A stretch of DNA of 56,042 nucleotides from a virus, in IMG/VR virus record IMGVR_UViG_3300021961_000122, positions 1-56,042 of that record; one strand, given 5' to 3'. The notes below the pieces were generated by a model. The model ran no database searches and was not told the DNA's origin. It saw only the letters and a list, made by a program, of their open reading frames with translations. Position numbers and translations under genes: made by a program. This document shows, one piece after another, positions 140-45,717 of the stretch (its first letter is position 1; each line of letters opens with the position of its first letter).

Positions 140-538
140 CTATCGTGGATAACCCTTAAACGGTTTCACGGGACTGTTTTTTTGTATCCAATCGGCTTCG
201 TGGCTTCTATTGTCAGTAAGTTTTTTAATACGGCCCGCGCCAACCATTTTTGCAGCCGAATTAACAATGGCTAATTCTTCATCTGTGTAAGTGGCCAGAA
301 GTGGGTCTCCAGCAGTAGCACCAGCAGGATCTGTAGGATAATCTGGAGCGCCTGCCATAGCAATGCCAAAGCGCCATTGTGTGTAAGGGCTGCCGCCTTG
401 CTTGTTTTGACTTAAATCGGGCAAGCTGATCAAACCCTTTAGTGCAGAACGCTGCGACTTGGGCATTTTTTTACCAGATGCTGGAACATCAGCGGCACTG
501 CCGTATGTGGTTTCTGTAATAAATTCTCGTGCTCTCAT
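140..538 (-). CDS. Candidate packaged internal protein with capsid-targeting N-terminus
   Basis: 132 residues. The ATG at 538-536 is preferred over the TTG at 550 because it overlaps the preceding stop (TAATG) and puts MRAREFITE at the exact N-terminus. That tag resembles the T4 capsid-targeting sequence MKTYQEFIAE and ends in I-T-E, the kind of site cut by the T4-type gp21 prohead protease. The body (KKMPKSQRSALKGLISLPDL...) matches no family I know. The C-terminus, NRSHEADWIQKNSPVKPFKG then YPR, is clearly related to that of the protein at 1706-2086. Inference: carried into the prohead, trimmed to start after Glu9, and delivered with the DNA. Function after entry is unknown. Confidence 0.75.
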   Translation of the reverse strand: MRAREFITETTYGSAADVPASGKKMPKSQRSALKGLISLPDLSQNKQGGSPYTQWRFGIAMAGAPDYPTDPAGATAGDPLLATYTDEELAIVNSAAKMVGAGRIKKLTDNRSHEADWIQKNSPVKPFKGYPR

Positions 539-828
539 TAACAGTTCCAACGCTTACGTGCTTTGCATATTGCTTTGTCAGGTGTTTTAGAACAGTCAAT
601 ATTGTGCATTTTCTTTTGGCCTGCAGATCTAGCGCAATAACTTGATCTGCGTTTGGCATCTTTACTGCCTTTTTTTAGTTTACTGGGTTTTGTAGTTACA
701 GCAGTTTTTAGTTTGCTACCAGGATGTTCGCGACGATAAGCAGCAACGGCCTTTTTACTCATGCCATCAGTTTTGTCTTTTTTATTAACCTTTTGCCAAT
801 CTTCAGTAACGAATTCACTTGCTCGCAT
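538..828 (-). CDS. Candidate packaged internal protein, basic, Cys-containing (DUF6321-like)
   Basis: 96 residues, very basic. It begins MRASEFVTE, the same tag as three other small proteins in the window, ending in V-T-E. The next part (GMSKKAVAAYRREHPGSKLK, then TAVTTKPSKL) and the Cys-containing second half (YCARSAGQKK, NIDCSKTPDKAICKARKRWNC) match a small basic protein common in T4-like aquatic phages; I believe this is the DUF6321 type, but this is from memory. The ATG at 828-826 overlaps the upstream stop as TAATG, and its own stop overlaps the next start in the same way. The charge and cysteines suggest nucleic-acid binding, possibly in the packaged core. Function is inferred. Confidence 0.75.
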   Translation of the reverse strand: MRASEFVTEDWQKVNKKDKTDGMSKKAVAAYRREHPGSKLKTAVTTKPSKLKKGSKDAKRRSSYCARSAGQKKMHNIDCSKTPDKAICKARKRWNC

Positions 829-1703
829 TATAAATCCTTTAACTTCATATGGCCAAACGGTGGGTCACCTTTGGTGTTTTGCCATAGTTCTCTATTGCCC
901 AGTATTTCAACCCATACATTATTATTAGGCTGATTCAATCCCCAGAAATCAAACTTTACATGACTACTTACAGGACGGCAGTATAGCGTTTTTTCTTTTG
1001 GTACGCACAACTGCTGGCTAGTAGTTCTATATTTGTTTGCCTCAGTACTGGTTCTCATTATATTTAGCTGCGGATGATTGATATACACTTGACATAATCC
1101 ATCAACTAGATCTTCAGGTTTAGTTGCGTTTTCTACAACTGCTTGAGCTTGCAAAAATCTTGCTTCGCTGCTGATACGATCTAGAACTTCTTGTTTGTTT
1201 TTTGACGAGCGTTGAAATCCTGACCAGGGCATCCATAAGCCGTGATTGGTTCTTACTACAATTTCATCATTGGGTATTTTTTTAACATAGTATCTGTAGG
1301 GGCGAGTGCCATCTTGATCAGATGCTTCTATTAGATACATGGTGTTTTGATCAAACACCATAGTGCATCCCACTAACTTGTGCTTGAGCAATAGTTTGAC
1401 TGCATTTTTAACATTACTTTGCAACAATGCTTCAGCAATAATTTTGCCGTCGGGACTGTTTTTTGTTTTTCCTGCTGTAACGTCTGGTTCATCGTCAAAC
1501 ACATCTAAGCTGGTGTTTAATATGCTGATACCATTGCTGTTGATGCCTTCCATATAGCCAGTGACCAAGTCATGCATCATCATACGACCCACGCCGTCTT
1601 TTTCTTGTTCAATGAAATCTAATTCAGGTGTGTATTTGCGGTCGCGGTTCTTAGCACCAGCCCACCCTGTTCCCGGGAAGTATTTGGCGACTATTATGCA
1701 CAT
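828..1703 (-). CDS. Ntn-hydrolase-fold protein with N-terminal Cys (NRDE/TANGO2- or C45-like)
   Basis: 291 residues, starting MCIIVAKYFPGTGWAGAKNR-DR. Cysteine at position 2, followed by beta-strand residues and an N-R-D-R motif, is the signature of N-terminal-nucleophile hydrolases whose initiator Met is removed to expose the catalytic Cys (TANGO2/NRDE and penicillin V acylase/C45 relatives). Later segments fit the fold: GINSNGISILNTSLD, a CTMVFDQNTMYLIEASD strand pair and VVRTNHGLWM (an N-H pair typical of acyltransferase relatives). The substrate is unknown; cleavage of an amide such as an acyl-homoserine lactone, peptide or glutamine is possible. It lies between two packaged-protein candidates and probably shares their transcript, but has no targeting tag itself. 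Confidence 0.6.
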   Translation of the reverse strand: MCIIVAKYFPGTGWAGAKNRDRKYTPELDFIEQEKDGVGRMMMHDLVTGYMEGINSNGISILNTSLDVFDDEPDVTAGKTKNSPDGKIIAEALLQSNVKNAVKLLLKHKLVGCTMVFDQNTMYLIEASDQDGTRPYRYYVKKIPNDEIVVRTNHGLWMPWSGFQRSSKNKQEVLDRISSEARFLQAQAVVENATKPEDLVDGLCQVYINHPQLNIMRTSTEANKYRTTSQQLCVPKEKTLYCRPVSSHVKFDFWGLNQPNNNVWVEILGNRELWQNTKGDPPFGHMKLKDL

Positions 1704-1705
1704 GG

Positions 1706-2086
1706 CTATCTAGCGTAACCGCGGAATGATTTTACAGGACTAACCGTATTGGTATCATCAGTTTCGTGGCTGCCGTTACCAATTTTATCGCCGGGATTCA
1801 TGTCTAGTTTTTTCATGATGGCCAGCAATTTTTTGCGATCGTGTTCAGTATAAGCACTGAAAATAGGTACGTTGCCAAAGAAATTGATATCGTCGGCATC
1901 TTCAAGTTCTTCTAAATCCATGCCAGCAAGCACAGCCACACGATAGTGATCATAATAACGTCCCCAGTATGTGTCTGATTTAGATTCGGGACCAATCAGG
2001 CCAGGGTGTGCCCGCTCGAATTCATGGCGAGCGTGAGCCCTGTGAGTCCTACGTTGGCCCTCAGTAATGAATTCGCTTGCTCTCAT
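1706..2086 (-). CDS. Candidate packaged internal protein with capsid-targeting N-terminus
   Basis: 126 residues. N-terminus MRASEFITEGQRR carries the shared tag, ending I-T-E before Gly, which matches the preference of T4-type gp21 for (L/I)xE before a small residue. The middle is mixed-charge and helix-forming (HEFERAHPGLIGPESKSDTY, then YYDHYRVAVLAGMDLEELED). The end, NGSHETDDTNTVSPVKSFRG then YAR, aligns with the C-terminus of the protein at 140-538 (N-x-S-H-E-x-D ... S-P-V-K-x-F-x-G-Y-x-R). Located just after the 593-residue charged protein, 10 nt from its stop. Inferred to be a capsid-core or injected protein; no biochemical function is recognisable. Confidence 0.75.
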   Translation of the reverse strand: MRASEFITEGQRRTHRAHARHEFERAHPGLIGPESKSDTYWGRYYDHYRVAVLAGMDLEELEDADDINFFGNVPIFSAYTEHDRKKLLAIMKKLDMNPGDKIGNGSHETDDTNTVSPVKSFRGYAR

Positions 2087-3882: not shown

Positions 3883-4488
3883 TTATCCTCTTGGGTTGTA
3901 ACCAGTTGCTGGCTTCGGTGGTCTCTTGACCTTTGACATGGGACTTGTATTTCCCATAGGTAAACTGTTAGTGGTAACAGCAGGTGGTGTCTTACCACCG
4001 GCTACAGTGAAATCACTGCGATATGCATTTTTCAATACTGCGTGATCATCAGGTGCAGCAGAGTAATCTTTGCTTAGGGCTTTTTGTTCAGCATCGGGAG
4101 CAGGATAAGGAGACTTCAACAGATCCTTGTTTTGTGCTGCCATGTCAGCATTTAATTTGTCATTGCTGTCTTCGTAAGGCACAGTGAGCATACGCACACG
4201 ATTAGGATCCAAGCCCAATAGCTGTGCTATTTGACGAATCTGCGGCTCAATAGCTGGATAGCGAAACTCTACATCAACGTGTGTGCAGCTTTCGTTGTTA
4301 ATTTCTGGAAAGTCCGCTAACCGTGCCATTACTGGTGTGGTCTTGGGCGAAGAAATTTTAACAACGTCAAACTGTTGAAGTTTTTCTTCAAGAGCTCGAA
4401 CAAAGTCTTTAGGAGCATCACCGGCAATTTTAATGCGGTAATTGTATACTCGCTCATTTTCTAACAAATATTCTCTGAAATGTTTCAT
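3883..4488 (-). CDS. T4-like virion structural protein with possible cleaved N-terminus
   Basis: 201 residues. MKHFREYLLE-NERVYNYRIKIAG resembles virion structural proteins of T4-like phages that follow the small terminase gene. The first ten residues also resemble the capsid-targeting peptide (M-K-x-x-x-E-(F/Y)-(I/L)-x-E) and end in L-L-E, so gp21 trimming is plausible. The N-terminal half (residues 12-110) looks folded, with alternating strands and helices; the rest is a Pro/Lys-rich tail ending PKPATGYNPRG. A late promoter core ATAAATA lies upstream, with AGGGA as ribosome site in the 18-nt gap to the ATG. Related proteins are found in virions, but no precise role is known. Confidence 0.6.
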   Translation of the reverse strand: MKHFREYLLENERVYNYRIKIAGDAPKDFVRALEEKLQQFDVVKISSPKTTPVMARLADFPEINNESCTHVDVEFRYPAIEPQIRQIAQLLGLDPNRVRMLTVPYEDSNDKLNADMAAQNKDLLKSPYPAPDAEQKALSKDYSAAPDDHAVLKNAYRSDFTVAGGKTPPAVTTNSLPMGNTSPMSKVKRPPKPATGYNPRG

Positions 4489-14716: not shown

Positions 14717-15004
14717 CTAGCGATATTTGTTCAAACGGCGAATCAAACGGCTGGCTGTATTGATTTTTTTGGATCGAGCAGCACGTCGGGCAGCCGGTTT
14801 GCCGGTTCGAGCACGAGTTCTTTTCATACGCTCTCTGGCGGCAATATCTGGGGGATCACTACAGTCCGCAGGAGTAGGCACTACCCGACCGCGGCGAGTG
14901 CCGCTGGTACAACGCCATTTTAGGACAGGAACACCACCACGAGTAGAGGTTTTTTTGCGTGTCCAAACCATTTTGTGTTCGGTAACAAACTCACTAGCTC
15001 GCAT
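14717..15004 (-). CDS. Candidate packaged internal protein, strongly basic
   Basis: 95 residues. Start at 15004 (MRASEFVTEHKMVWTRKK) rather than 15019, because this ATG overlaps the upstream stop as TAATG and begins the shared tag. After V-T-E the protein is highly basic: GGVPVLKWRCTSGTRRGRVV P, then C and RRAARSKKINTASRLIRRLN KYR. A similar small basic protein with a W-R-C-T-S-G-x-R-x-G-R core is common in T4-like aquatic phages. It lies about 12 kb from the other three tagged genes but is coupled to a neck-protein gene in the same manner. A packaged nucleic-acid-binding protein is the simplest reading; not demonstrated. Confidence 0.75.
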   Translation of the reverse strand: MRASEFVTEHKMVWTRKKTSTRGGVPVLKWRCTSGTRRGRVVPTPADCSDPPDIAARERMKRTRARTGKPAARRAARSKKINTASRLIRRLNKYR

Positions 15005-22702: not shown

Positions 22703-25700
22703 TTAGAAGCGTCCTACGACAACTTCAATTACGCCTGCACCTTCATGGTCAGCTAGAGCTTTACCAATAATTGTACCAGGTTTGGGGTTAGCTTCAGCAC
22801 GGGCTGCACCGTTACCGGCAGCAACCATCAAGTCACCTTTACGTACTGTTCCAACTACCTTACATGGTACACGACCAGTAAACGCTACAGTAACTACGTG
22901 AGCAGCAGCTAATTCACTGTTCATGGTGTAAGCAGGATGTGTAGAAACTACACCAGCAACACGCGAGCACATGTCGTGATCGCAAACAGTAACTTCAGCA
23001 CTACCACCAAACTCAACCACTGTACCAGGTTCGTAACTTGCGTCACCTGCATAGTTCTCTGCCAAGTCAGCGTATTGAGCCGATGTTGCCACACCAATGA
23101 ATGATGTACCAGTTACTGTACCACTTGCACTGATTGCGCCTGTAACATTCAAACCACCTGTATGGAATACGCCAACATTATTGGTTCCACCAATTGTAAC
23201 GTTAGCATTGCCACCAGCTGACTGAATGTCAATTGTGGTTGTACCGTTTTGGATGCGATCGCCTAGAATGTTTCCACTCAATGTAGCGTTACCAGTAACT
23301 GTTAAGTCACCAGCAATTTCAACACCAGTACCGTATATGGTAGCAACTGTAGTGCCATTAACATTAGCACGGATGTTACCATTACTAGCAATAACTGCCA
23401 AGCTACTTGTGCCATTAGCAATAGTTGTTGTGTCAACTGAAGCTGAGTCAATTGTAGCAGGTGTAGTGCCATCATTTTCAAAGAATCCGATTTGTCCACC
23501 GGTGTCTTTAATCTTGATACTGCCCAACGAAATAGTGTTACCAGCTAGATACAACTGATTCCAACGTAGTGTGTCAGAACCAAGGTTGTATGTTACATTG
23601 GCCACTGGAAGTATGTTACCTGTGATATCAACATTGCCACCTGTGGGTGTCGAAACTTTAGCAGTTGCACCACTATTCTGAATAGCAGAAACAGTAGTTG
23701 TTGTTGTCAAGATGCGGCAGTCAATAACGTCGCCGATAGCCGGAGCTTCAGTGAATGTTATTGTTGTGCCAGAAACAGCATACGCAGTTACTGGAATCTG
23801 TTGAACACCGTTGATAGCAACGATTGTACCGGCTGTTGTGGATTCTTGGCTGAGCGTAAACGCTACAGTAGAACCATCACCACTGAACTGATCATCTGTG
23901 ATAACTGTGATTTCTTGCTGACCAACTGGAGTCCACTCACTGTTAGTGTCAAACACCTCCATGGAGTTGATCTCACTGTTGAAACGCAACATACCTGTTA
24001 CACCAGTTGGACGCTGTGATGTGTTACCAACAGGAGCTAGGAACGATGTTGTAGCATTCAGCGCAAGTACAGCACCTGTAGTTTGTGTAGCACTACCGAT
24101 ACTAACTGACTCTGTGCCAGCATCAACAAAGAAGATGTTTGCAGTTGTGTCACCGTTAACAGCAAAGTTAACATCGCCGAGTGCGCCATTGATTGTAACT
24201 ACACCGTTTAGGCCAGTAATGTCATCAGCTTGTACAACAATGTTACCAAATGTACCAGAACCAGCTGTAGAAATATTACCACCTGTAATGTTACCAGTAG
24301 CACTCATTGTACCACTTGTAGCAACGTTACCCACTGTAGCAGTACCAGTTGAGCTAATTGTACCACCTGTAGCCAAGTTACCACCAGTGATTGTGTTGCT
24401 AGATGTAATAGTACCTGTAGCACTTACTGTACCAGCTGTAGCGACGTTACCACCAGTAATAGTGCCAGTAGCACTCATTGTACCACCAGAGTTAACAGCG
24501 GTAGCACCAGTTACTGTACCAGTTACACTAACACTACTACCTTCGATAGCACCAGATGTAATTAAATTGCCACCTGTTACATTACCTGTAGCACTTACAG
24601 TACCGGCTGTAGCAACATTACCAACTGTTGCAGTACCTGTTGAACTGATTGTACCACCAGTTGCTAAGTTACCACCTGTAATTGTGCTAGTAGCACTTAC
24701 TACGCCACCAGTTAGAACATTACCACCTGTTACATTACCTGTAGCACTTACAGTACCACCTGTAGCAACATTACCAAATGTACCTGTGCCAGTAGCACTT
24801 ACAGTACCACCTGTAGCCAAATTGCCACCAGTGATTGTAGCATCAGATGTGATTGTACCAGTAGAACTGATTGTACCACCTGTAGCCAAATTGCCACCAG
24901 TGATTGTGTTGCTAGATGTAATAGTACCTGTAGCACTTACTGTACCACCTGTAGCAACGTTGCCACCAGTAATAGTGCCAGTAGCACTCATTGTACTTGT
25001 AGAATTAACAACGCCACCTGTTACTGTACCGGTTGTAGAAATAAATCCAGAACCAGCATTAACATTACCTAACGTAGCAGTTCCTGTTGAACTTACAGTA
25101 CCAGCAGTAGCTAAGTTACCACCAGTAATTGTGCCAGTAGCACTTACAGTACCACCTGTAGCAACGTTACCTAGTGTGGCTGTACCAGTAGAACTGATTG
25201 TACCACCTGTAGCCAAATTGCCACCAGTGATTGTACCAGTTGTACTTAGACTTGTACCAGTCGCATCACCAATGTTAGGTGTTGTCAATTGAGCACTGTC
25301 TTTAACAACAACAGCATCACCAACAATAGCAGTTGTGATGTTGTCAACGTTAACGCTGAATGTTGTGCCTGTTAAGTCTAGACCAGCACCAGCAGTATAT
25401 TGACCAGCACCCGAGAACTGTTGGAATGTGATGTCTGTAGAACCAACTGTTACTGGAGAATCTGTTGTACATACCCAACCTGTATCAGCATTTGTTGTGC
25501 CTGTTTCAATGAATGTAAACGCACCAGGGAATTCACCACTTGGCGAGCCATTATCCATATCTGTTGCACGAGTCAACACAAACGCAGCAGCAATGCCACC
25601 TGGATTGGTAACAACATAGATACCGTTATGAGGAGCGTTTCCACCTGTTTCGTTCTTAATCAACACGCGAGCGCCTGTTGTGGGGCTTACGCCATCCATT

Positions 25701-28700
25701 GTCAATGCGCCAACACTATTAGCAGTAATTGTAGCACCTACACCCGCTGTACCGTTGGAGTATGTGTTTGATGGCAATGCACTAGTTGTAGCAGATACGC
25801 AACTGGCTTTGATATCAAGACCTTGCGCAACTGAGTCAACATAGAACTTGGTAGCAGCATCTTGTGCGTTAACTGGATCAGCAACATTAGTAATGTTGGT
25901 TGAACTAGCACTAACACTTGTACCAGCCAATGTAATTACACCAGCGGATGTAATAGATACTGTGGAACCTTGAACATTTGTAGTATTAACATTACCAGCA
26001 CTAACATTACCTGTAGCACTCATTGAGCCACTGGTTAGAACGTTACCGCCTGTTACATTACCTGTAGCACTTACTTCGCCAGTAGTGTAAACATTACCAA
26101 ATGTACCGTTACCAGTAGCACTTACTGTACCAGTTGTAGCAACGTTACCAACTGTAGCAGTACCAGTAGAACTGATTGTACCGCCTGTAGCAAGATTACC
26201 ACCAGTGATTGTGCCAGTAGCACTCATTGTAGTTGTGGAGTTAACGCCTGCACCTGTTACAGTACCACCAGCACTTACTGTACCAGCAGTAGATACGTTA
26301 CCAACTGTAGCAGTACCAGTAGAACTTAATGTACCACCAGAAACAACAGCAGTAGCACCTGTTACTGTACCAGTTACACTTACATTTGCACCAGTGATAT
26401 TGCCAGCAGTAGCAACATTACCAAAAGTACCTGTACCAGTAGCACTTACTGTACCAGCAGTAGCAATATTACCACCTGTGATTGTACCAACAGCACTCAT
26501 TGTGGTTGTGGAGTTAACAACGCCACCTGTTACTGTACCAGTTGTAGAAATAGCACCAGAACCAGCGTCTAAACTAGTAACTGTGGCTGCACCACCAGTT
26601 ACTGTACCAGCAGTAGACAAGTTACCACCTGTGATTGTACCAGTAGCACTCATTGTATCACCGGAATTAACAGCAGTACCACCTGTTACTGTACCAGTTG
26701 TAGAAATAAATCCAGTACTTGCAACATTACCTAGTGTTGCTGTACCTGTTGAACTGATTGTACCACCGGTTGCTAAGTTACCACCAGTAATAGTACCAGC
26801 AGCACTCATTGTTGTGCCTGAGTTAACAGTACCACCTGTGATTGTACTGGTAGCACTTACTATGCCGCCAGTTAGAACATTACCACCTGTTACATTACCT
26901 GTAGCACTTACAGTACCGGCTGTAGCAACGTTACCAAAAGTACCTGTGCCAGTAGCACTCATTGTACTTGTAGAGTTAACACCACCACCTGTGATTGTGC
27001 TTGTAGCACTTACTGTACCAGCAGTAGCAACGTTACCTAGTGTGGCTGTACCAGTAGAACTGATTGTACCACCTGTGGCCAAATTGCCACCAGTGATTGT
27101 GTTGTCAGATGTAATAGTACCTGTAGCACTTACTGTACCAGCAGTAGCAATATTACCACCTGTGATTGTACCAACAGCACTCATTGTGGTTGTGGAGTTA
27201 ACACCTGCACCAGTTACAGTAGTTGTAGCACTTATTGCACCGGTAGAGTTAACAGTACCACCTGTTACTGTACCACTTGTGGACATAAATCCGGTACTAG
27301 CAATATTGCCACCAGTAATTGTACCAGTTGTACTTAAAGTTTGACTTGTGGTATTTCCAGTTAAACTAATGTCGTGTAGTACAGCACCAGTTTTAACTAC
27401 AACAGCGTCAGCAACAATAGCAGTTGTGACATCGTCAACGTTAACACTGAATGTTGTACCTGTTAGAGCCAAGCCGTCGCCAGCAGTATACTGACCAGCA
27501 CCCGAGAACTGTGTCCAAATAATAGGATCAGTGCCGATTGTGCTTACGTCTTCAGTTTGTACCCAACCAGTGTCGCCTTGTGTTGTACCGTTTTGTACGA
27601 ACACAAATGTACCAGAGTTGATTTCAAGCGGTTGATCAGCGTCTGTGGAACGTGTCAGTGTTGTGGAGTTGGTGTATACATAGATACCGTTTTGTACATT
27701 ATTTGCCTGATTCTTAACCAAAACACGGCGACCAACAGTAGCAATCGAAGCACCGTCAATGCTGGTATATGTACCAGTTGTAGTCAGTGTAGCACCTACG
27801 CCAGCAGTACCGTTGTTGTATGTAACTGTACCACCTGAAGCTGCATCTAGCGTGCCTGTTGTGGCTGCATAAACAGCAGTTTTAATAATTAGACCTTGTG
27901 CAACTGAGTCAACATACGCTTTGGTAGCAGCGTCTTGTGCGTTAACTGGATCAGCCAAGTTAATGATATTAACGTTTCCAAGACTGACATTACCAGGAGC
28001 AGTCAATGTGATTGCGCCAGCTGATTCAAGTGTAAGACTTGGAGAACCATAGATGTAATCAGTTAAAACGTTTCCAGCACTAACATTACCAGTTGTAGCA
28101 ATGCTACCAGAACCAGCACTTAAATTGCCACCTGTTACATTACCTGTAGCACTTACTACGCCAGTAGTTAGTAGGTTAGCACCAGTTACATTACCACCAG
28201 CACTTACTGTACCGCTAGTAGATACATTACCTAATGTGGCTGTACCAGTTGAACTGAGTGTACCACCAGAAACAACAGCAGTAGCACCTGTTACTGTGCC
28301 AGTTACACTAACACTTGCACCTGTGATAGCACCACTTGTAACCAAATTACCACCGGTAATTGTACTTGTGGCACTGATTGTGCCTTCTGTGTCAATATTG
28401 CCGCCAGTAATATTACCAGTAGCACTAACTGCACCATTTGAATTAACAGTACCACCTGTTACTGTACCAGTTGTAGAAATAAATCCAGTACTTGCGACGT
28501 TACCTAGTGTAGCTGTGCCAGTAGAACTTACAGTACCACCTGTAGCTAAATTACCACCAGTAACTGTGCCAGTAGCACTTACAGTACCAGCAGTAGCAAC
28601 ATTACCACCTGTGATAGTACCAACAGCACTCATTGTGGTTGTGGAGTTAACAGCACCGCCTGTGACTGTGCCAGTAGCACTTACAGTACCACCTGTAGCA

Positions 28701-31700
28701 ACATTACCAACAGTGGCTGTGCCTACAGCACTCATTGTACCACCTGAGTTAACAGCAGTATCACCTGTTACTGTACCAGTTGTAGAAATAAATCCAGTAC
28801 TAGCAACGTTACCGAGTGTAGCTGTGCCAGTAGAACTGATTGCACCAGCAGTTGTTAAGTTACCACCTGTTACATTACCAGTAGCACTTACTGTGCCACC
28901 TGTAGCAACATTACCACCTGTGATAGTGCCAGCAGCACTCATTGTGGTTGTGGAGTTAACAGCACCGCCTGTAACTGTGCCTGTGGCACTCATTAAACCA
29001 GCAGTTAGAACATTACCACCAGTTACGTTACCTGTAGCACTTACAGTACCACCTGTTGCGACGTTACCAACAGTGGCTGTACCTACAGCACTCATTGTGC
29101 CGCCTGAGTTAACAGCAGTATCGCCTGTTACTGTACCAGTTGTAGAAATAAATCCACTACTAGCAACGTTACCCAATGTAGCTGTGCCAGTAGAACTGAT
29201 TGCCCCAGCAGTTGTTAAGTTACCGCCTGATACGTTGCCTGTGGCATTTACTGTACCACCTGTTGACACGTTACCAAAAGTACCTGTACCAGTAGCACTT
29301 ACAGTACCACCTGTAGCCAAATTGCCACCAGTAACTGTGCCAGTAGCACTCATTAAACCAGCAGTTAGAACATTACCACCAGTTACGTTACCTGTAGCAC
29401 TTACAGTACCACCTGTAGCCACGTTACCCAATGTGGCTGTACCTGTAGCACTTACTGTGCCGCCGGTAGCCAAGTTGCCACCAGTGATTGTGCCTGTCGA
29501 ACTTACAGTACCACCTGTGGCTAAATTGCCAGCAGTGGCTGTACCAGTTAGGCTTAAACTTGTACCTGTAGCAGTTCCAATGTTAGGATTGGTCAATTGA
29601 GCGCCATCTTTAACAACAACAGCATCGCCAACAATAGCAGTTGTAACGTTGTCAACGTTAACACTGAATACTGTACCTGTTAGATCTAGGCCGTCGCCTG
29701 CTGTGTATTGACCAGCACCTGAGAATTGTGTCCAGTTAATAGCTGTTACACCAATTGTACCACCCGAATCGGATGTACATACCCAGCCTGTGTCAGCGTA
29801 TGTGGAACCTTGTTCAACGAATGTAAACGCACCAGGAACTTGGGCCCACGTATCCATATCAGAAGAACGTGTCCAAGCACCAGAAGCTACATCATAGATA
29901 CCGTTATCTGCGGCGTTGGTTTGATTTTTAACCAAAACACGATCGCCAGCAATCAATGTTGTAACACCGTCAATGGTTTGTATACCACTGAGTGTGATGT
30001 TAGTTGTAGTGGCTGCAACTACAGATGCTTTTAGGTCAAGACCTTGAGCAACTGAATCAACATAACCTTTGTTGGCAGCGTCTGTATCGGTTGTAGGTGT
30101 AGCAACATTAGTAATACGAGAACTACTTACATCAACTGTACCTGTACCGTTGGGTACTAACACAACACTGGAATCAACGCCTTGTGCTGTGATTGTAACA
30201 CCAGTGGAACCAAACATAAAGCCTGTATTAAGATTGCCGCCCGAAATGTTACCAGTAGCACTCATCAAGCCAGTAGTTAGGAAGTTTGCACCAGTTACAT
30301 TACCTGTAGCACTTACTACGCCAGCAGTTAGAACATTACCACCAGTAACATTACCAGTAGCACTTACAGTACCAGCTGTAGCCACGTTACCTAGTGTGGC
30401 TGTACCTGTAGAACTTAATGTGCCACCAGAAACAACAGCAGTAGCACCTGTTACTGTACCAGTTACACTAACACTACTACCTGTAATAGCACCAGATGTA
30501 ATTAAATTGCCACCAGTTACGTTACCTGTAGCACTTACACTACCGCCTGTGGCTAAATTACCAACAGTGGCTGTACCTGTAGCACTTACTGTACCACCTG
30601 TAGCCAAATTGCCACCTGTTACTGTGCCGGTAGCACTTACTGTACCACCTGTGGCTAAATTACCAACAGTAGCAGTACCTGTAGCACTTACTGTGCCACC
30701 AGTAGCAACATTACCAAATGTACCTGTGCCAGTAGCACTTACAGTACCACCAGTTGCCAAGTTACCGCCTGTGATTGTATTGTCAGATGTAATTGTACCA
30801 GTAGCACTCATTGTGCCGCCAGTAGCAACATTACCAAATGTACCTGTACCAGTAGCACTTACTGTACCAGTTGTAGCAACATTACCAACAGTAGCAGTTC
30901 CGGTTGCACTTACAGTACCACCTGTAGCCAAATTGCCACCAGTGATTGTGCCAGTAGCACTTACTGTACCACCTGTGGCTACGTTACCAACAGTGGCTGT
31001 ACCAGTTGAACTTAATGTACCGTTGGACGCTAGGTTGCCGGCAGTAACTGTGCCTGTAACATTCAAAGGACTAGTTACATTGCCTGTTAAACTTAGTGTG
31101 CCGGCACCTAAATTGCCGCTGATTGTAACATCGTCGTTCAAGCTAACTTGAATGTTTGCTTGTACGTTACTAATTGCGGGGAAAACAGTTAATGTTATGT
31201 TGGTGTCGCCTTCATAACCAATGGTATCACCAGCTTCAATTGCTGCACTATCAACGCCGTCGGTAATAGTAAAGCCAGCGGCACTGACTGCGCTGTCTAC
31301 GTAATCTTTGGTAGCTGCATCTTGAGCACTAACTGGATCGGCAACGTTGCCTAACCTGTTAAGACCAAAGTCTAATGTAGATGATGCGGCTACATTAATG
31401 CCGCTAACGTTACTGGCACCAGTGACACGTAGATCACCTGTTACTTCAGAATTTAATACTTTTACACTAGCGTAACTGTCAATTGTAACAGTTGTGTTAG
31501 TTTCAGTAGTGCTTGTAAATACTGTTACAAACAAACCTTGACTTTCATCCCATACAAACGCTACGTTTGTTGATGTACCACGTTGACCTAGAAAACCAAT
31601 GTCAACTGCTGGTGCACCTGTTTGTGTTGACGCTAACAAAATAACCGGATCTTCAATGGTTGTAATGTTAGTGTCAATTGCGGTGGTATTACCTTGAACT

Positions 31701-31846
31701 GTTAAGTTACCGGTAATCGTTAAGTTAGATCCATAAACTAGATTGTTAGCGATTTTGCCTGCGCTAATCGAATAATCTTGTAACTTTGTGCTACCAACAA
31801 TGGTTGCATCAGTTATCTGATTATTCTTAATTCTGGTTACAGCCAT
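22703..31846 (-). CDS. Giant repetitive tail fibre (3047 aa)
   Basis: One uninterrupted frame. The N-terminus (MAVTRIKNNQITDATIVGST KLQDYSISAGKIANNLVYGS) looks like a virion attachment part. Most of the rest is a shaft of degenerate repeats of about 11-14 residues, e.g. GGTVSATGTITGGNLAT. Three long globular modules interrupt it at about 29540-30110, 27340-27970 and 25240-25890; each starts AATKxYVDSVAQGL (AANK in one), carries (D/G)RVLVKNQ ... NGIY ... RSxDxD ... DTGW and ends QFSGAGQYTAGDGL. A shorter related unit lies near 31180-31330. The C-terminus is a GDGSTVAFTLSQ module plus the tip domain (YADLAENYAGDASYEPGTVV) shared with the 586-aa fibre. Probably the main host-recognition fibre. 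Downstream hairpins end transcription. Confidence 0.8.
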   Translation of the reverse strand: MAVTRIKNNQITDATIVGSTKLQDYSISAGKIANNLVYGSNLTITGNLTVQGNTTAIDTNITTIEDPVILLASTQTGAPAVDIGFLGQRGTSTNVAFVWDESQGLFVTVFTSTTETNTTVTIDSYASVKVLNSEVTGDLRVTGASNVSGINVAASSTLDFGLNRLGNVADPVSAQDAATKDYVDSAVSAAGFTITDGVDSAAIEAGDTIGYEGDTNITLTVFPAISNVQANIQVSLNDDVTISGNLGAGTLSLTGNVTSPLNVTGTVTAGNLASNGTLSSTGTATVGNVATGGTVSATGTITGGNLATGGTVSATGTATVGNVATTGTVSATGTGTFGNVATGGTMSATGTITSDNTITGGNLATGGTVSATGTGTFGNVATGGTVSATGTATVGNLATGGTVSATGTVTGGNLATGGTVSATGTATVGNLATGGSVSATGNVTGGNLITSGAITGSSVSVTGTVTGATAVVSGGTLSSTGTATLGNVATAGTVSATGNVTGGNVLTAGVVSATGNVTGANFLTTGLMSATGNISGGNLNTGFMFGSTGVTITAQGVDSSVVLVPNGTGTVDVSSSRITNVATPTTDTDAANKGYVDSVAQGLDLKASVVAATTTNITLSGIQTIDGVTTLIAGDRVLVKNQTNAADNGIYDVASGAWTRSSDMDTWAQVPGAFTFVEQGSTYADTGWVCTSDSGGTIGVTAINWTQFSGAGQYTAGDGLDLTGTVFSVNVDNVTTAIVGDAVVVKDGAQLTNPNIGTATGTSLSLTGTATAGNLATGGTVSSTGTITGGNLATGGTVSATGTATLGNVATGGTVSATGNVTGGNVLTAGLMSATGTVTGGNLATGGTVSATGTGTFGNVSTGGTVNATGNVSGGNLTTAGAISSTGTATLGNVASSGFISTTGTVTGDTAVNSGGTMSAVGTATVGNVATGGTVSATGNVTGGNVLTAGLMSATGTVTGGAVNSTTTMSAAGTITGGNVATGGTVSATGNVTGGNLTTAGAISSTGTATLGNVASTGFISTTGTVTGDTAVNSGGTMSAVGTATVGNVATGGTVSATGTVTGGAVNSTTTMSAVGTITGGNVATAGTVSATGTVTGGNLATGGTVSSTGTATLGNVASTGFISTTGTVTGGTVNSNGAVSATGNITGGNIDTEGTISATSTITGGNLVTSGAITGASVSVTGTVTGATAVVSGGTLSSTGTATLGNVSTSGTVSAGGNVTGANLLTTGVVSATGNVTGGNLSAGSGSIATTGNVSAGNVLTDYIYGSPSLTLESAGAITLTAPGNVSLGNVNIINLADPVNAQDAATKAYVDSVAQGLIIKTAVYAATTGTLDAASGGTVTYNNGTAGVGATLTTTGTYTSIDGASIATVGRRVLVKNQANNVQNGIYVYTNSTTLTRSTDADQPLEINSGTFVFVQNGTTQGDTGWVQTEDVSTIGTDPIIWTQFSGAGQYTAGDGLALTGTTFSVNVDDVTTAIVADAVVVKTGAVLHDISLTGNTTSQTLSTTGTITGGNIASTGFMSTSGTVTGGTVNSTGAISATTTVTGAGVNSTTTMSAVGTITGGNIATAGTVSATGTITSDNTITGGNLATGGTISSTGTATLGNVATAGTVSATSTITGGGVNSTSTMSATGTGTFGNVATAGTVSATGNVTGGNVLTGGIVSATSTITGGTVNSGTTMSAAGTITGGNLATGGTISSTGTATLGNVASTGFISTTGTVTGGTAVNSGDTMSATGTITGGNLSTAGTVTGGAATVTSLDAGSGAISTTGTVTGGVVNSTTTMSAVGTITGGNIATAGTVSATGTGTFGNVATAGNITGANVSVTGTVTGATAVVSGGTLSSTGTATVGNVSTAGTVSAGGTVTGAGVNSTTTMSATGTITGGNLATGGTISSTGTATVGNVATTGTVSATGNGTFGNVYTTGEVSATGNVTGGNVLTSGSMSATGNVSAGNVNTTNVQGSTVSITSAGVITLAGTSVSASSTNITNVADPVNAQDAATKFYVDSVAQGLDIKASCVSATTSALPSNTYSNGTAGVGATITANSVGALTMDGVSPTTGARVLIKNETGGNAPHNGIYVVTNPGGIAAAFVLTRATDMDNGSPSGEFPGAFTFIETGTTNADTGWVCTTDSPVTVGSTDITFQQFSGAGQYTAGAGLDLTGTTFSVNVDNITTAIVGDAVVVKDSAQLTTPNIGDATGTSLSTTGTITGGNLATGGTISSTGTATLGNVATGGTVSATGTITGGNLATAGTVSSTGTATLGNVNAGSGFISTTGTVTGGVVNSTSTMSATGTITGGNVATGGTVSATGTITSSNTITGGNLATGGTISSTGTITSDATITGGNLATGGTVSATGTGTFGNVATGGTVSATGNVTGGNVLTGGVVSATSTITGGNLATGGTISSTGTATVGNVATAGTVSATGNVTGGNLITSGAIEGSSVSVTGTVTGATAVNSGGTMSATGTITGGNVATAGTVSATGTITSSNTITGGNLATGGTISSTGTATVGNVATSGTMSATGNITGGNISTAGSGTFGNIVVQADDITGLNGVVTINGALGDVNFAVNGDTTANIFFVDAGTESVSIGSATQTTGAVLALNATTSFLAPVGNTSQRPTGVTGMLRFNSEINSMEVFDTNSEWTPVGQQEITVITDDQFSGDGSTVAFTLSQESTTAGTIVAINGVQQIPVTAYAVSGTTITFTEAPAIGDVIDCRILTTTTTVSAIQNSGATAKVSTPTGGNVDITGNILPVANVTYNLGSDTLRWNQLYLAGNTISLGSIKIKDTGGQIGFFENDGTTPATIDSASVDTTTIANGTSSLAVIASNGNIRANVNGTTVATIYGTGVEIAGDLTVTGNATLSGNILGDRIQNGTTTIDIQSAGGNANVTIGGTNNVGVFHTGGLNVTGAISASGTVTGTSFIGVATSAQYADLAENYAGDASYEPGTVVEFGGSAEVTVCDHDMCSRVAGVVSTHPAYTMNSELAAAHVVTVAFTGRVPCKVVGTVRKGDLMVAAGNGAARAEANPKPGTIIGKALADHEGAGVIEVVVGRF
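23950..31080 (-). repeat. Tandem degenerate repeats coding the fibre shaft
   Basis: Imperfect units of about 33-42 nt, each encoding variants of GTVSATGT-(I/V/A)-T-(G/V/L)-GN-(L/V)-AT-G, in several blocks separated by the globular modules. Many units differ only at synonymous sites or by single substitutions, for example the near-identical stretches around 28600-28860 and 28900-29200. Confidence 0.8.
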
Positions 31847-39801: not shown

Positions 39802-41010
39802 TCAGCTGAACGAGAGGTTCTGGACAGCGATTTCTCCGACATAGTCAGCAGCATTACCAAAACTGCTGGCCGTGTTGGTGAGCTCGACGAAGCCATAACG
39901 CGTCATAAAGCTGACGACTGGTTCGAATGTCGAAGGATCAAGAACAACACCACTGCTCATCAATGGAATGTAGGGGCAGTAGAATGCAGCAGCATCAGCT
40001 TCGGAGGAGCCTTTGTAGCCAACCAATACTGGCGAGCTGTCATTGGCGTAGCTGTTTACAAACACACGCATAGCGCCATTTAGTGTACCAACAAACTTGG
40101 TGTTTGTGGGTGCTTCAAATGTGCCTTCTGTTGTGCGAGCAAAAGCGGAAGTTGTAGCAGATTGCAGAACTGTCAACGAAGCTGGAGAAACAACAGCCCA
40201 GTTACCAGCGCCACGACGTGTACGCTGAGCGATCAAGTTAGCAACACGATTGATTAGAACAGCTAGAGCAGCGTGTTCGTCACCAACGAATGTAGCAGTA
40301 CCGGATACAGTAGCTTGGTTGTATGTGTACTCTGTAGCAGCCAACGAGCTCAAGCTCAACAAGATCTCTTGGTCAATCTCAGCTGTAATCTCTTGTGCGA
40401 GAGCAGCCATGATTTCAGCTTCAACGTCAATGCCATGCATGGCTTGTGCGTCTTGAGCCGATTCAAATGTCCAACGAGCTTGTAGCTTACGTGTTTTGGC
40501 TTCAACAGCTTGTTTCAGAATCTGAACACTAACTGTCTTACCGCCGTTACCTTCCATGGATGCTGTAGAAGCACCTTGATAGTTGGAAGTTGTTGTAGCG
40601 CCATTGTTAGCAGCAGCAGGACTCGAAGAGTATGCTGTAGCAATTGTGAATGGGCTCAATGCTTCTTGACCAGCAGCAACCGATGTAGCAGCAGCCGAGT
40701 TGTCAGTTAAAGCACTAGCGTAACGTACACGTAGAGTGTGAATTTGACCAACGGGACCTGTCATGGGCTGTACGCCTACCAACTCGTTAGCAATAACGGT
40801 GGGCATAACACGTCGAATCACTGGCAGAATCACACGGTTTAGTGTGGCAATGTTGCCGGATGCTGTAGAACCAGCACTGGCGTTTTCTTTCAAGTACTTG
40901 CGTGTATTCTCAAGAATAACGTTCATACTGTTGCGCTTGGAACCACTTAGACCTTCAAGTAGTGCTTCCTTGGTCTCGTCCCAGCGACCTTCTAATAATT
41001 GTTGTGACAT
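39802..41010 (-). CDS. 23: Major capsid protein gp23
   Basis: 402 residues, shorter than T4 gp23 (521). LNRVILPVIRRVMPTVIANE LVGVQPMTGPVGQIHTLRVR Y is the gp23 signature; AKTRKLQARWTFESAQDAQA MHGIDVEAEIMAALAQEITA EIDQEIL and GYKGSSEADAAAFYCPYIPL MSSGVVLDPSTFEPVVSFMT RYG confirm it. The HK97-type N-arm contains RKYLKE-NASAG: cleavage after Glu42 (L-K-E) by gp21 fits the T4 consensus and would give a 360-residue mature subunit. Last gene of the gp20-to-gp23 head operon, with AAGGAG before the ATG and a terminator 33 nt after the stop. Confidence 0.95.
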   Translation of the reverse strand: MSQQLLEGRWDETKEALLEGLSGSKRNSMNVILENTRKYLKENASAGSTASGNIATLNRVILPVIRRVMPTVIANELVGVQPMTGPVGQIHTLRVRYASALTDNSAAATSVAAGQEALSPFTIATAYSSSPAAANNGATTTSNYQGASTASMEGNGGKTVSVQILKQAVEAKTRKLQARWTFESAQDAQAMHGIDVEAEIMAALAQEITAEIDQEILLSLSSLAATEYTYNQATVSGTATFVGDEHAALAVLINRVANLIAQRTRRGAGNWAVVSPASLTVLQSATTSAFARTTEGTFEAPTNTKFVGTLNGAMRVFVNSYANDSSPVLVGYKGSSEADAAAFYCPYIPLMSSGVVLDPSTFEPVVSFMTRYGFVELTNTASSFGNAADYVGEIAVQNLSFS

Positions 41011-41028: not shown

Positions 41029-42129
41029 TTAATTTAACCCGGCCAGTCGCTTGATGTCGATTACATTGCTGGTTTCAGCAGTTTCTTCATCATAATGGCT
41101 ACGGGTAGATTTATCGCCAGTGACTTCGGACACGGATTCTGTAATCACTTTTTGGGCTTTTACAGAGCGGTCTGTTAGAACAGCTGGAAGATACTTTTCG
41201 AATGCGCCTTTCAGACGGGATGTCTGTACGCTTTCGAGTAAACTACTCATGACTTCGGCTTTTTCCTTGTTTAATGGTGCCAGCAAATCGTCCATAATGC
41301 GCTTGCGCTCATTGGATTCTTTGATCATGCGTATTTCACGCTCTTTTGACTCGTTAAGAACTTTTGCTTTCTTAACAAGGTCGATGGCTTCAGCCAACTT
41401 AGCATCTTTTTGTGCAATAGTGTCGTGTAATTTACGTACTTCGGCTTTCTCGTTGAGATGCGTAGCACCAAATTCTGCGGCATATGCTTCAAAAATACGA
41501 CGGCCAAAATTGTTCTCGCGAGCAACTTTGATGTCTTCATGCAATTGACTGAGTTCAGCTTTAAGATGTTGGCTTACAGCTTGACTCATTTTCTTGGCCG
41601 ATTCTGTTACGAAACGACTTTTCAATGATTCTAATTGGCCACGGGCTTCACGTACTAAACGAACCTTGGTCTCTACGACGTCACGTTTGTCAGCAGCGAA
41701 TTCTTGTATTTCGCGGGCCAATGCATGCACAATAAAGCCTTCGAGTTTTTCGAGACCTTCATTGTGCTGCTTCCGATCCTTGCGCAATTCACCAATTTCT
41801 TCGGCTAATTTAGAAACCATAAAGTTGTTAAACTTAGTGGCGCTTTCTTTCATTTTGCTTTGGAACTTGACGCGATCTTCGGCCAATGCTTGCTTTTCAG
41901 CAGCTACGGCTTGAATCTCTGCGGTAAGACCATCTGTTACCATACGATCTAGGGCTTCCACCATCACTGTCTTATCATGCTCATAGCGTTGTGCAAACTC
42001 TTCGCGTAGTTCTGCACGTACTTGTTCACGAGCTTCTGTCATCTTGGCTTCCCAAGCTTCAGAGATCTCCTGGCGAGTTTCCTCGGTGATCAAATCGCTA
42101 TCTAGTAACGGTTTAATAGCATCTAGCAT
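41029..42129 (-). CDS. 22: Prohead scaffold (core) protein gp22
   Basis: 366 residues, almost wholly helical and highly charged, with long coiled-coil stretches (AAEKQALAEDRVKFQSKMKE SATKFNNFMVSKLAEEIGEL; VRKLHDTIAQKDAKLAEAID LVKKAKVLNESKEREI), as expected for T4 gp22. KLAEEIGELRKDRKQHNEGL and SSLLESVQTSRLKGAFEKYL PAVL are family features. It forms the inner prohead core and is chopped by gp21 at L/I-x-E sites, several of which occur (DLITE near the N-terminus). It follows gp21 by 2 nt and precedes gp23, as in T4. Confidence 0.9.
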   Translation of the reverse strand: MLDAIKPLLDSDLITEETRQEISEAWEAKMTEAREQVRAELREEFAQRYEHDKTVMVEALDRMVTDGLTAEIQAVAAEKQALAEDRVKFQSKMKESATKFNNFMVSKLAEEIGELRKDRKQHNEGLEKLEGFIVHALAREIQEFAADKRDVVETKVRLVREARGQLESLKSRFVTESAKKMSQAVSQHLKAELSQLHEDIKVARENNFGRRIFEAYAAEFGATHLNEKAEVRKLHDTIAQKDAKLAEAIDLVKKAKVLNESKEREIRMIKESNERKRIMDDLLAPLNKEKAEVMSSLLESVQTSRLKGAFEKYLPAVLTDRSVKAQKVITESVSEVTGDKSTRSHYDEETAETSNVIDIKRLAGLN

Positions 42130-42131
42130 GC

Positions 42132-42779
42132 TTATTCCTCCCTAATTTTAAGATCCTTGATCAGCTTTACTACTTCGCTTCTCAAGTATCTTTGTACCTT
42201 GTTGTCCGCACCGGCTTCCCTTGCTACTTCTAACAATCTATGTCCGTACTTCATATTCATGAGTCCTTCGTAAATTGCTGTGGGATAAGCATTTGGAGCA
42301 CTGGGTTGTGCAACTACATCTACAGTGACAATTTCAAAATCACTGACATGTCCTGTTCGGTCGTCGACATTTCCGGATCCACGACTTGAAACACCTAATT
42401 TAACACCGCTGTCCAACATGGTTTTAACCAGTTGTCCCATGGGTGTTGGTAATATTCTTAATTTTCCATAACCTATTGCGCCATCACACCACATTTTATC
42501 AATGTTGTGGCTAACACGATCTAAGTTAATTTTGAGATCATCGGGATGATCTACTTCGCCTAATACCGAGTTACCATTTTCAAGTTGTTCGTTGATAGTG
42601 GCTACCGCTTTTCGTATTTCATGGGCGGGATATATTCTTTCATTGGCATTACGCTTATCGCCTTCAATGCAAATTCCTTGCATATAAAGGGTCTTACCAG
42701 AACCATCGGCAGCTTCCTCCGACAGCACTTTTACTTGTGCCTGGTGGAAGCTGAGATGTTCTTGTAGATAACGAGCCAT
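42132..42779 (-). CDS. 21: Prohead protease gp21
   Basis: 215 residues, matching T4 gp21 (212). MQGICIEGDKRNANERIYPA HE, then SVLGEVDHPDDLKINLDRVS H with catalytic His78, and LDSGVKLGVSSRGSGNV with the nucleophile Ser at about 132, show the intact herpesvirus-assemblin-like serine protease core (peptidase U9/S80). It processes capsid and core proteins after (L/I)-x-E and presumably cleaves the tagged small proteins in this window. In the order gp67-21-22-23, with short gaps. Confidence 0.9.
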   Translation of the reverse strand: MARYLQEHLSFHQAQVKVLSEEAADGSGKTLYMQGICIEGDKRNANERIYPAHEIRKAVATINEQLENGNSVLGEVDHPDDLKINLDRVSHNIDKMWCDGAIGYGKLRILPTPMGQLVKTMLDSGVKLGVSSRGSGNVDDRTGHVSDFEIVTVDVVAQPSAPNAYPTAIYEGLMNMKYGHRLLEVAREAGADNKVQRYLRSEVVKLIKDLKIREE

Positions 42780-43663: not shown

Positions 43664-43885
43664 TTAAAGATTTGCTGGTTGAGCAGGAGGAGCGTACTGT
43701 TTCCGAATATCTTTGAGCTTTTCTTTATACTCATAATTTCTAACATCTTGCATTTGACGTAGCTTGGAAAGCTGCTTGAGTGTCAAACGAGTTTTGCGGA
43801 GTTGTCCGCGTTGGGGCTGACTGTTGTCTTGAGCAACATCTTGATAACCTTCGGGTTGACGCTGGAACAGTTCAGTTAGGATCAT
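43664..43885 (-). CDS. Small head-cluster protein with possible gp21 cleavage tag
   Basis: 73 residues between gp20 and gp67-like. MILTELFQRQPEG opens like T4 Alt (MELITELFDED), whose N-terminus is cut by gp21 after L-I-T-E; here L-T-E precedes L-F in the same way. The rest is helical (TRLTLKQLSKLRQMQDVRNY EYKEKLKDIRKQY) with a PAQPANL end. Small proteins of this pattern accompany gp20 in T4-like aquatic phages. Likely a prohead core component. Late promoter ATAAATA ends 5 nt before the ATG, with no Shine-Dalgarno. Confidence 0.6.
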   Translation of the reverse strand: MILTELFQRQPEGYQDVAQDNSQPQRGQLRKTRLTLKQLSKLRQMQDVRNYEYKEKLKDIRKQYAPPAQPANL

Positions 43886-43890: not shown

Positions 43891-43897
43891 TATTTAT
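43891..43897 (-). promoter_or_regulatory. Late promoter core ATAAATA before the 73-aa gene (leaderless type)
   Basis: ATAAATA-ACCGT-ATG: exactly 5 nt; predicted first base is the A of ATG. It overlaps the gp20 stop codon region. Confidence 0.6.
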
Positions 43898-45717
43898 GCT
43901 GTCGGGGGCGGAGGAACGGCACCGGGTGCTACAGGTATGCTGCCCGGAGCGGATGTTGGCCCGATACCACCAATATCCGGAGAGCCTTCAGGTGGCAATG
44001 CAGACAACTCGTCCCCAGTTTCAATGTCGCTTTCCATGCCAGCAGGCGTAATACCGATACTTCGCAAGTCTTGTCCTTGTGTGGTTTCAAGGTTGGGCTG
44101 ATCGCGTTCTTCTTTCCACAACTTGGAGTTTTCAGTGATTTCTTCTTCACTCAGTCCCAAATAACGCTGCATTAGAAAACGCTTGCTCATATAGGGCAAC
44201 TGCTCTAGTTGCGCAAAAGTACCTACACGGCCGGTGTCCATTTCAGCTTGACGATAGCTGGCAAAGTTTTGCGGGGGACCCAGTGTAATGTCAAACAAGC
44301 TGTTGTCAATGTTAAAACCGCGCCATTTCATAAACATCTTAAACTCGTCGTCGAGTTTTTGTATAATCAGTCGCTGTAGACGTTCGCAGTACTGGTTGAA
44401 ACGATACTCCTGAATAAGGGCTGTGCCTACTTTTCCGTCGTTTAATGCACGGTCTGAGTCGTCGGGACCAGTGGGCAAATAGCTGGAAGGCACACGCAAA
44501 CCACGGGCCATTTTGTTGTTAAAATACTTCAAATCGTCAATTTCGCCCAGTCCAGTACCGCCGGGTAGTGTGTCTACAGAGCTGCCGCGACCGTCGGAAG
44601 TTTGGGGGAAGAAGTAGTCTTCGTTGATGCTTAGTGGGTTGTAAGCAGCGTCCATCATGTTAGCGCCACCGCCTGATACAGTGGGGATACGGCGTTGGTG
44701 CATTTCGTTCTTTACTCGCTCCACAAAAGCCATTGCCATGTGGCTGGGCATGTTGCCCACGTCAATCTTAAACACACGCCGCTCCGGTGCACGACTTACA
44801 CGATAAATCAACACTGAATCTTCTAGCAGTTCTTTCTGCTTGTAAACTTTGAAGATGTTTTCTAAAATACTTTGTCCAAAGGGCCAGAAAAAGTCTAAGC
44901 CTTCATTCAAGCTCAAATGCACCACGTGTTTAGCATCAATAGTGGTTTCATTCATAGCTTGTGTGAAGCGGCTGTTGCCTTGTGTGCCACCATAACCGCC
45001 GCCACCACCCCCATTGGGCGCTGTATAATTGTTTTGTCCCACAGAGCCAGTAGCACGGCTTACATAGTAATCAGCAGTGGTTTTGGGAGCAATGCTTAAA
45101 TTTTGAAAATTGGGGTTGATGTCACGGATAACATACTGCTCGGGACGCTTGCCTTCGCTTTCGTTTACAATTACACGGCTGACTTTGACCATGTCAACCC
45201 AGTACATTTCAAATGTTTCGGGGTCGCGCACAAACACTTGATCGCCATACTTGATAGTATTCCGAAACAGTTTGAACATCCGCTGATCAAGTTTGTTTAA
45301 TTTGGTCCACTGTTGCAGTTGTTTTTTGATAATTTCCACTTCGTGATCAGTGGGTTTATCTTTAAATTGTATGTCAAAGGGTGTGTTATTATCTTCGTTG
45401 TTTTGTGTGCTAAACTCAGCAATAATGTCTAAACATGCGTTAATTTCTGAATCCATGTCCATGTTTTCATATTGATTATAGCGTTCAATACGATTAGGAT
45501 GGCCCGAATACACTTCGGGTAGTCGACTGGCATAGTTGCGAAAGGCAAAATCATTAGCGGTAGACGTGCTGCCCGAGCCGTTTTGACGACCATAGCCCGG
45601 AAGGCCGTTGGCATTGTTTCCGGATATAGGGCTGAGTTGTCCATTTACGGAACCGTCGGCAACTTTGAAATATTTTCTCCAGCCTCGGCCGTTTCTACTG
45701 TTGGTTGGTTCAGCCAT
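43894..45717 (-). CDS. 20: Portal vertex protein gp20
   Basis: 607 residues (T4 gp20 has 524). NRIERYNQYENMDMDSEINA CLDIIAEFSTQNNEDNNTPF, VSRAPERRVFKIDVGNMPSH MAMAFVERVKNEMHQRRIPT and YFNNKMARGLRVPSSYLPTG are diagnostic gp20 blocks: portal wing, stem helix and crown approach. Twelve copies form the vertex through which DNA is packaged and on which the neck sits. A Gly-rich insert (NGGGGGGYGG) and the Pro/Gly-rich C-terminal tail are extra. Late promoter GTAAATA and AAAGGAAA lie upstream. First gene of the head operon. Confidence 0.95.
   Translation of the reverse strand: MAEPTNSRNGRGWRKYFKVADGSVNGQLSPISGNNANGLPGYGRQNGSGSTSTANDFAFRNYASRLPEVYSGHPNRIERYNQYENMDMDSEINACLDIIAEFSTQNNEDNNTPFDIQFKDKPTDHEVEIIKKQLQQWTKLNKLDQRMFKLFRNTIKYGDQVFVRDPETFEMYWVDMVKVSRVIVNESEGKRPEQYVIRDINPNFQNLSIAPKTTADYYVSRATGSVGQNNYTAPNGGGGGGYGGTQGNSRFTQAMNETTIDAKHVVHLSLNEGLDFFWPFGQSILENIFKVYKQKELLEDSVLIYRVSRAPERRVFKIDVGNMPSHMAMAFVERVKNEMHQRRIPTVSGGGANMMDAAYNPLSINEDYFFPQTSDGRGSSVDTLPGGTGLGEIDDLKYFNNKMARGLRVPSSYLPTGPDDSDRALNDGKVGTALIQEYRFNQYCERLQRLIIQKLDDEFKMFMKWRGFNIDNSLFDITLGPPQNFASYRQAEMDTGRVGTFAQLEQLPYMSKRFLMQRYLGLSEEEITENSKLWKEERDQPNLETTQGQDLRSIGITPAGMESDIETGDELSALPPEGSPDIGGIGPTSAPGSIPVAPGAVPPPPTA

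Follow-up and report, generated by a model that had tools for sequence, protein, structure and literature searches.

The DNA analysed, called here the window in its whole length, is a 56,042-bp virus fragment from IMG/VR that carries a T4-superfamily head module (coding gp20, gp21, gp22 and gp23). Four of its genes, all on the minus strand, begin with variants of one nonapeptide, MRAxEF[IV]TE: MRAREFITE at position 538, MRASEFVTE at 828, MRASEFITE at 2086 and MRASEFVTE at 15004. They code for a 132-residue protein (140..538; tag 512-538; pI of 9.5 in the mature form), a 96-residue protein (538..828; tag 802-828; mature pI 10.3), a 126-residue protein (1706..2086; tag 2060-2086; mature pI 6.4) and a very basic 95-residue protein (14717..15004; tag 14978-15004; pI 12.0). 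The first-pass annotation had described tagged starts whose codons differ and whose peptide is kept, and this is confirmed at all four positions. Codon choice varies at several synonymous positions of the tag among the four copies, the peptide remains constant, and the 20 bases 5' of the tag are unlike from copy to copy.

The bodies that follow the tag had been considered largely unrelated, which holds for five of the six pairs. The proteins encoded at 140-538 and 1706-2086 are full-length paralogues (27% identity, E about 2e-7) and have the carboxyl terminus SPVKxF[KR]GYxR in common, so that one of the six pairs of bodies is homologous. The 1706-2086 protein belongs to a large tagged family with the end SPVKxFKGYxR, and the family of the paralogous pair is the most abundant of the tagged families. 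No Pfam or PHROG domain was found in the 140-538, 1706-2086 and 14717-15004 proteins. The number of tagged proteins without a recognisable domain, given before as two, is thus three of the four. The exception is the 538-828 protein, in which the tag is immediately followed by DUF6321 (PF19846, E=4e-11). The AF2 model of the 1706-2086 protein is of low confidence (pTM 0.51); its fold has no match in the PDB, and the one viral protein that it matches, weakly, is uncharacterised. Note that the minus strand also codes, between tagged genes (828-1703), for an untagged 291-residue protein with the start MCIIVAKYFPGTGWAGAKNRDR. Its Cys at residue 2 resembles the start of Ntn-hydrolases, and the protein has no Pfam or PHROG match.

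The genes of the head module are on the same strand. They code for the gp20 portal protein (43894..45717), the gp21 prohead protease (42132..42779; Peptidase_S77, PF03420, E=3.6e-24), a gp22-like scaffold (41029..42129; phrog_10922) and the gp23 major capsid protein (39802..41010). The scaffold is a homologue of 121Q gp602, 'T4 gp22-like scaffolding', and its nearest cultured relatives are those of the jumbo T4-superfamily phages PA5oct, Atu_ph07, 121Q and GAP32. A gene for a 73-residue protein with the amino terminus MILTELFQ lies between those of the portal and the protease (43664..43885, minus strand), an interval that in T4 is occupied by the core protein gp67. In another tagged genome, G015, the portal-protease interval codes for a tagged protein (MKSTEFITE). 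A T4-type tag (10 residues, 4-residue spacing) is found at the start, MKHFREYLLE, of a 201-residue protein of the window (3883..4488, minus strand), whose homologues start MKTFAQYLTE in genome G018 and MKTLQDYLTE in Atu_ph07. In PHROG this protein weakly matches 'virion structural protein, head and packaging', and the gene order formed by it, a protein of roughly 590 residues and the tagged genes is conserved between the window and G018. As far as its start and its homologues allow a prediction, it is a probable fifth targeted protein. A 3047-residue open reading frame occupies positions 22703-31846 of the minus strand.

The carboxyl end of the tag bears on its relation to gp21. The motif F[ILV]TE is found five times in the window proteome, vs 0.5 times expected from shuffles, and its occurrences are limited to the four tags and to residues 173-176 of the gp22 scaffold (FVTE; 41602..41613, minus strand), a candidate gp21 site. 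The shorter [ILV]TE is mildly enriched (22 vs 13); the four-residue F[ILV]TE, rather than counts of [ILV]TE, is the informative motif. Across T4, F[ILV]TE is not over-represented (3 vs 1.9). The propeptide of T4 gp23 ends with FLTE at residue 65 and mature chains in the PDB start at residue 66, and in T4 IPI the sequence STITE ends at residue 19 and the solved structure (2jub) starts at residue 20. As the solved mature chains begin at residues 66 and 20, the T4 gp21 cleavages are placed behind FLTE-65 in gp23 and ITE-19 in IPI. The tag end, [IV]-T-E, equals these sites (FLTE/A in gp23, ITE/A in IPI) except for the choice of I, V or L, and on account of these two cleavages it is of the sequence type used by the T4 protease. 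The Val found in some tags lies outside the strict I/L consensus of gp21 sites, and residue 10 (P1') that follows the tag is broad (Q, S, G, R, A, D, K). T4 gp22 contains NFVTE, a site at which cleavage is not established. Conserved [ILV]xE sites of gp22 homologues were also considered as evidence of cleavage and were rejected, there being too many of them in the coiled coil. Mutagenesis of the T4 capsid-targeting sequence (CTS) assigned targeting to residues 4 and 7 and processing to residues 8 and 10 (PMC9026906). Residues F6, I/V7 and E9 of the tag align with F7, I8 and E10 of the T4 CTS; the aromatic residue 4 of T4 (Tyr) is without counterpart.

The tag is widespread in viral sequences. 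A 27-base degenerate pattern back-translated from it matches at least 120 IMG/VR loci, and a codon-permuted control of that pattern has no match in IMG/VR. In 257 Gb of cellular genomes (bacterial and archaeal) the pattern has 22 matches, nearly all of them internal to longer reading frames or carrying Ser as residue 2, and almost none a gene start. A chance origin of the tag is excluded. A control with random contigs, which were mostly short, was little informative. In the loci that were fetched, the looser motif [KR]xxEF[IVL]xE is found after a Met 150 times and not after a Met 14 times, a ratio that is maybe inflated because an ATG-anchored pattern was used to select many of these loci. In G018 (locus L452, 70297-74596) consecutive genes start with MKIKDLILKE, MRSQEFIRE, MRAQEFITE, MRAQEFVTE, MKAQEFITR and MRWREIMEN, a run of tags and tag-like sequences that suggests variation of the form M[KR]xx[ED][FIL][ILMV]xE.

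Throughout the tagged loci the synonymous codons of the tag vary freely. Such variation with conservation of the peptide argues that selection acts on the peptide. The common amino terminus might in principle be a feature of the DNA rather than a peptide signal, namely a recombination hotspot, a translation-initiation element or a copied gene start, and the grouping of tagged genes in tandem islands is what would be expected where genes are exchanged. This origin is scarcely tenable in view of the free choice of codons around a fixed peptide and of the dissimilar 20 bases upstream of the window copies. T4-type late promoters (TATAAATA/ATAAATA) were considered as supporting evidence and rejected: they are depleted directly upstream of tagged genes relative to other ORFs, and the tagged genes are often found within gene runs.

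The bodies attached to the tag form about 116 sequence clusters (greedy clustering, 60% coverage criterion). Independent families are fewer, because some clusters merely combine the same modules in different ways. Matches to Pfam or PHROG comprise GNAT, NUDIX, lysozyme, GH19, LysM, ADP-ribosyltransferase (PF03496), zeta toxin, HD and DUF6321; sigma-70 region 4 (L393), Phage_lysozyme (L320) and NUDIX (L117) cargoes were checked individually, as was the match of a tagged protein of locus L016 to the T7 gp0.7-like kinase. Tagged genes with unrelated bodies often adjoin in tandem islands, with a maximum of seven per locus. Untagged homologues of the DUF6321 protein are encoded by a Microcystis phage and by the Pelagibacter phages HTVC027P and HTVC100P, and Salicola phage SCTP-2 encodes one of the 14717-15004 protein.

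The presence of lysozyme, GH19 and LysM among the tagged proteins would suit a tag that directs proteins to the tail, baseplate or neck, for instance for delivery of a wall hydrolase, as would the position of the tagged genes of the window downstream of a structural gene run. Such a destination is improbable, considering that the motif is that of T4 gp21 sites on head proteins, that the head scaffold has the sole other F[ILV]TE of the window, that G015 codes for a tagged protein between portal and protease and that the equivalent group of T4 proteins are internal head proteins. The wall-hydrolase cargoes do count against delivery to the host cytoplasm, because the substrate of these enzymes is not in that compartment.

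Modularity was also assessed without reference to the motif, by grouping gene starts with at least 6 of 10 amino-terminal residues alike and then checking the homology of the bodies, in six genomes. In T4, the sole group of more than two genes without homologous bodies is formed by ipI, ipII, ipIII and 61.1 (0 of 6 pairs homologous). Applied to the window, the procedure returns its four tagged genes, and it returns eight tagged genes in G018 (2 of 28 pairs homologous) and seven in G015 (0 of 21); it identifies no such tag in PA5oct and 121Q. T4 gene 61.1 (AF158101, 18966-19130) codes for a hypothetical 54-residue protein, gp61.1, whose start MKTFKEFIKE is near the T4 CTS; going by this start and by its grouping with ipI-III, gp61.1 is possibly packaged too without having been recognised as such. 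In G015 the procedure returns a further group, of five proteins (L468 and L481; 22670-24167 and 286666-287629) that bear a second candidate tag, MNEI[NT]QLKxL[MV]E; the bodies of its bearers are non-homologous and it ends in LxE before A or S. G015 also codes (168788-185595) for several homologous proteins with the repeat W-Y-x-N-G-x-x-H-R-x-D-G-P-A-[VI]-E and the common start M[NS]TAQ, which are unrelated to the tag.

The tag occurs together with head genes. In a first set of 34 tagged contigs, gp21 and gp20 are found together in the same ten, which include all nine contigs of at least 140 kb. Genomes selected only by homology to gp22 are tagged in five of five cases, with 2-6 tags each. A second set includes three tagged contigs (199-262 kb) without gp21. 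The T4 portal gene is missing from them as well, for which reason they seem to be fragments that miss the head module, which is not proven. An equal occurrence of the tag in genomes without gp21, which according to the first-pass annotation would have refuted its proposal, is therefore not what is found, since the gp21-less tagged contigs tested are also those without the T4 portal gene. A search for the tag in T4-like phages that encode gp21 had been proposed too, and its outcome is divided: the tag accompanies gp21 and gp20 in the clade of the window and is absent from the 12 other named T4-superfamily phages tested, all of which have gp21. This implies that gp21 is insufficient for the tag, which is a clade feature. 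Co-occurrence with gp21 is by itself weak evidence, because gp21 is present in every large T4-superfamily phage checked and many of the tagged contigs are fragments.

The MRAxEF[IV]TE-type pattern, with its 3-residue spacer, is found in the tagged genomes and absent from all 13 named phages in which it was searched, and tblastn with two of the tagged proteins identified no cultured carrier of the tag. Among 24 records, the T4-type pattern with a 4-residue spacer, M[KR]xxxEF[IVL]xE, was found in T4 only (ipII, ipIII and 61.1); the window tags are of the 3-spacer type. A short amino-terminal peptide is also capable of directing a protein, once synthesised, within the infected cell, to the membrane, to degradation or to the replication site, without any role in the head. 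Yet the tag tracks gp20, gp21 and gp22 and its end matches the sites of the head protease, which leaves intracellular sorting highly improbable.

The nonapeptide MRAxEF[IV]TE is very likely a capsid-targeting sequence, by which proteins would bind the core, become enclosed, be cleaved by gp21 after Glu-9 and be ejected into the host. The proposal of capsid targeting made in the first-pass annotation is thus largely supported, having passed all the tests at the level of sequence that had the power to discriminate: gp21 and gp22 are encoded in the window, F[IV]TE is found only in the tags and in gp22, and the gp22-selected genomes are all tagged. The tag itself, its modularity, its position at gene starts, the selection at the peptide level, the co-occurrence with gp21, gp22 and gp20 and the match of its end to T4 gp21 sites are direct observations. 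Core binding, cleavage, retention and injection are inferences, none of which was observed, and for core binding, retention and ejection the inference is by analogy with T4. No virion proteome was found for any tagged phage. The broad P1', the depletion of late promoters upstream, the lack of an aromatic residue 4 and the 12 gp21 phages without the tag are points against capsid targeting. The resemblance of the tag end to the sites of the T4 head-maturation protease indicates that tagged proteins are most likely loaded in the head and injected. In the assembly pathway that is envisaged, the amino-terminal nonapeptide would bind the gp22-containing prohead core and the tagged protein would be enclosed as the gp23 shell assembles. 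Cleavage by gp21 after Glu-9 would then free the cargo, which would remain with the packaged DNA and be ejected into the host at infection. The cargo proteins would be numerous and exchangeable, with roles in host takeover or counter-defence, and the four proteins of the window may be uncharacterised members of this set. Two of these four are very basic, like the internal proteins of T4.

The tag could alternatively be a true signal for prohead-core targeting and processing on window proteins that are structural or DNA-condensing and stay in the head, without being effectors. No tagged family is more abundant than that of the paralogous pair, whose genes stand beside head genes in the window and in G018; two of the four window proteins are very basic, and T4 can do without its abundant IPIII (PMC9026906). 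Against this stand the host-directed enzymes that carry the tag elsewhere (sigma-70 region 4, gp0.7-like kinase, NUDIX, ADP-ribosyltransferase) and the tagged IPI-III of T4, which inhibit GmrSD enzymes after injection (PMC12373910). Retention of the proteins in the head is, on balance, rather unlikely. That the four proteins encoded in the window serve the head itself, structurally or by binding DNA, has to be kept as a serious alternative.

Beyond the window, there is a reasonable, though not compelling, case that an uncultured jumbo clade of the T4 superfamily uses modular delivery, in which one tag is carried by more than 100 proteins (sigma-70 region-4, gp0.7-like kinase, NUDIX, GNAT and ADP-ribosyltransferase among them) encoded in exchangeable tandem islands. 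If this is true, the tag predicts the injected 'effectorome' of a phage from sequence alone. Injected phage proteins act ahead of phage gene expression, include anti-restriction factors and are hard to recognise outside the T-evens. A tag that can be read from the sequence would make many hypothetical proteins of uncultured jumbo phages candidate injected effectors, and the T4 capsid-targeting system would prove to be a variable and widely used delivery route. Such a tag also offers a simple assay, which is to package a tagged reporter and look for cleavage at F[IV]TE. Much is known about the CTS and the internal proteins of T4. In the literature searched, with most subscription journals outside its scope, neither MRAxEF[IV]TE nor its cargo set was found described.

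Several known systems have features in common with the tagged proteins. T4 Alt is a packaged and injected ADP-ribosyltransferase with a 7-residue propeptide and the amino terminus MELITELFDE. The likeness lies in an enzymatic cargo for host takeover that enters the head by means of a short propeptide, and cargo of the ADP-ribosyltransferase type (PF03496) is also found with the tag; the amino terminus of Alt differs and no ADP-ribosyltransferase can be recognised among the four window proteins. In phiKZ and SPN3US the propeptides are mostly long (about 80-127 residues) and have A/S-x-E sites (PMC5694885). These phages similarly have amino-terminal propeptides cut after Glu by the prohead protease and many ejection proteins, but the length of the propeptides and the cleavage motif are different and they form a separate phage group. 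Atu_ph07, one of the gp22 relatives, has a candidate tag MRWxQLTE on ten mostly homologous proteins and a MRLIDLLE-like candidate tag on five non-homologous ones. Nine tandem MRWxQLTE paralogues (MF403008, 41844-49507) are gp54-62 in the numbering of the publication and the tenth is distant; the three of these paralogues that were tried have no Pfam match. They fall inside CDS 31-76, a region for which virion mass spectrometry identified 29 proteins, of which just two were predicted to be structural (PMC6102473); whether gp54-62 are among these 29 is not established. Atu_ph07 thus resembles the window in having an amino-terminal tag that ends in LxE on several proteins, and differs in the tag sequence and in the mostly homologous bodies behind MRWxQLTE.

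The closest parallel is the T4 CTS, whose 10 residues are enough to package foreign proteins; its use by T4-like phages as a means to package varied proteins is an idea already published (PMC9026906). Both systems attach a short amino-terminal peptide with an EF[IV]xE core to sequence-unrelated proteins that are small and often basic, the peptide ends at a gp21-type signal, and gp21 and gp22 are encoded. The comparison with T4 MKTYQEFIAE made at the outset holds for the kind of end and for the core; it does not extend to the length (9 residues instead of 10, with one residue fewer before EF and hence a 3- rather than a 4-residue spacer), to the Arg at position 2 or to position 4, where MRAxEF[IV]TE has no aromatic residue. 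The range of cargo differs as well, with about 116 tagged clusters vs about 10 internal proteins in the T-evens (PMC12373910). As read from its sequences, the system is a divergent and much larger version of the T4 capsid-targeting system.
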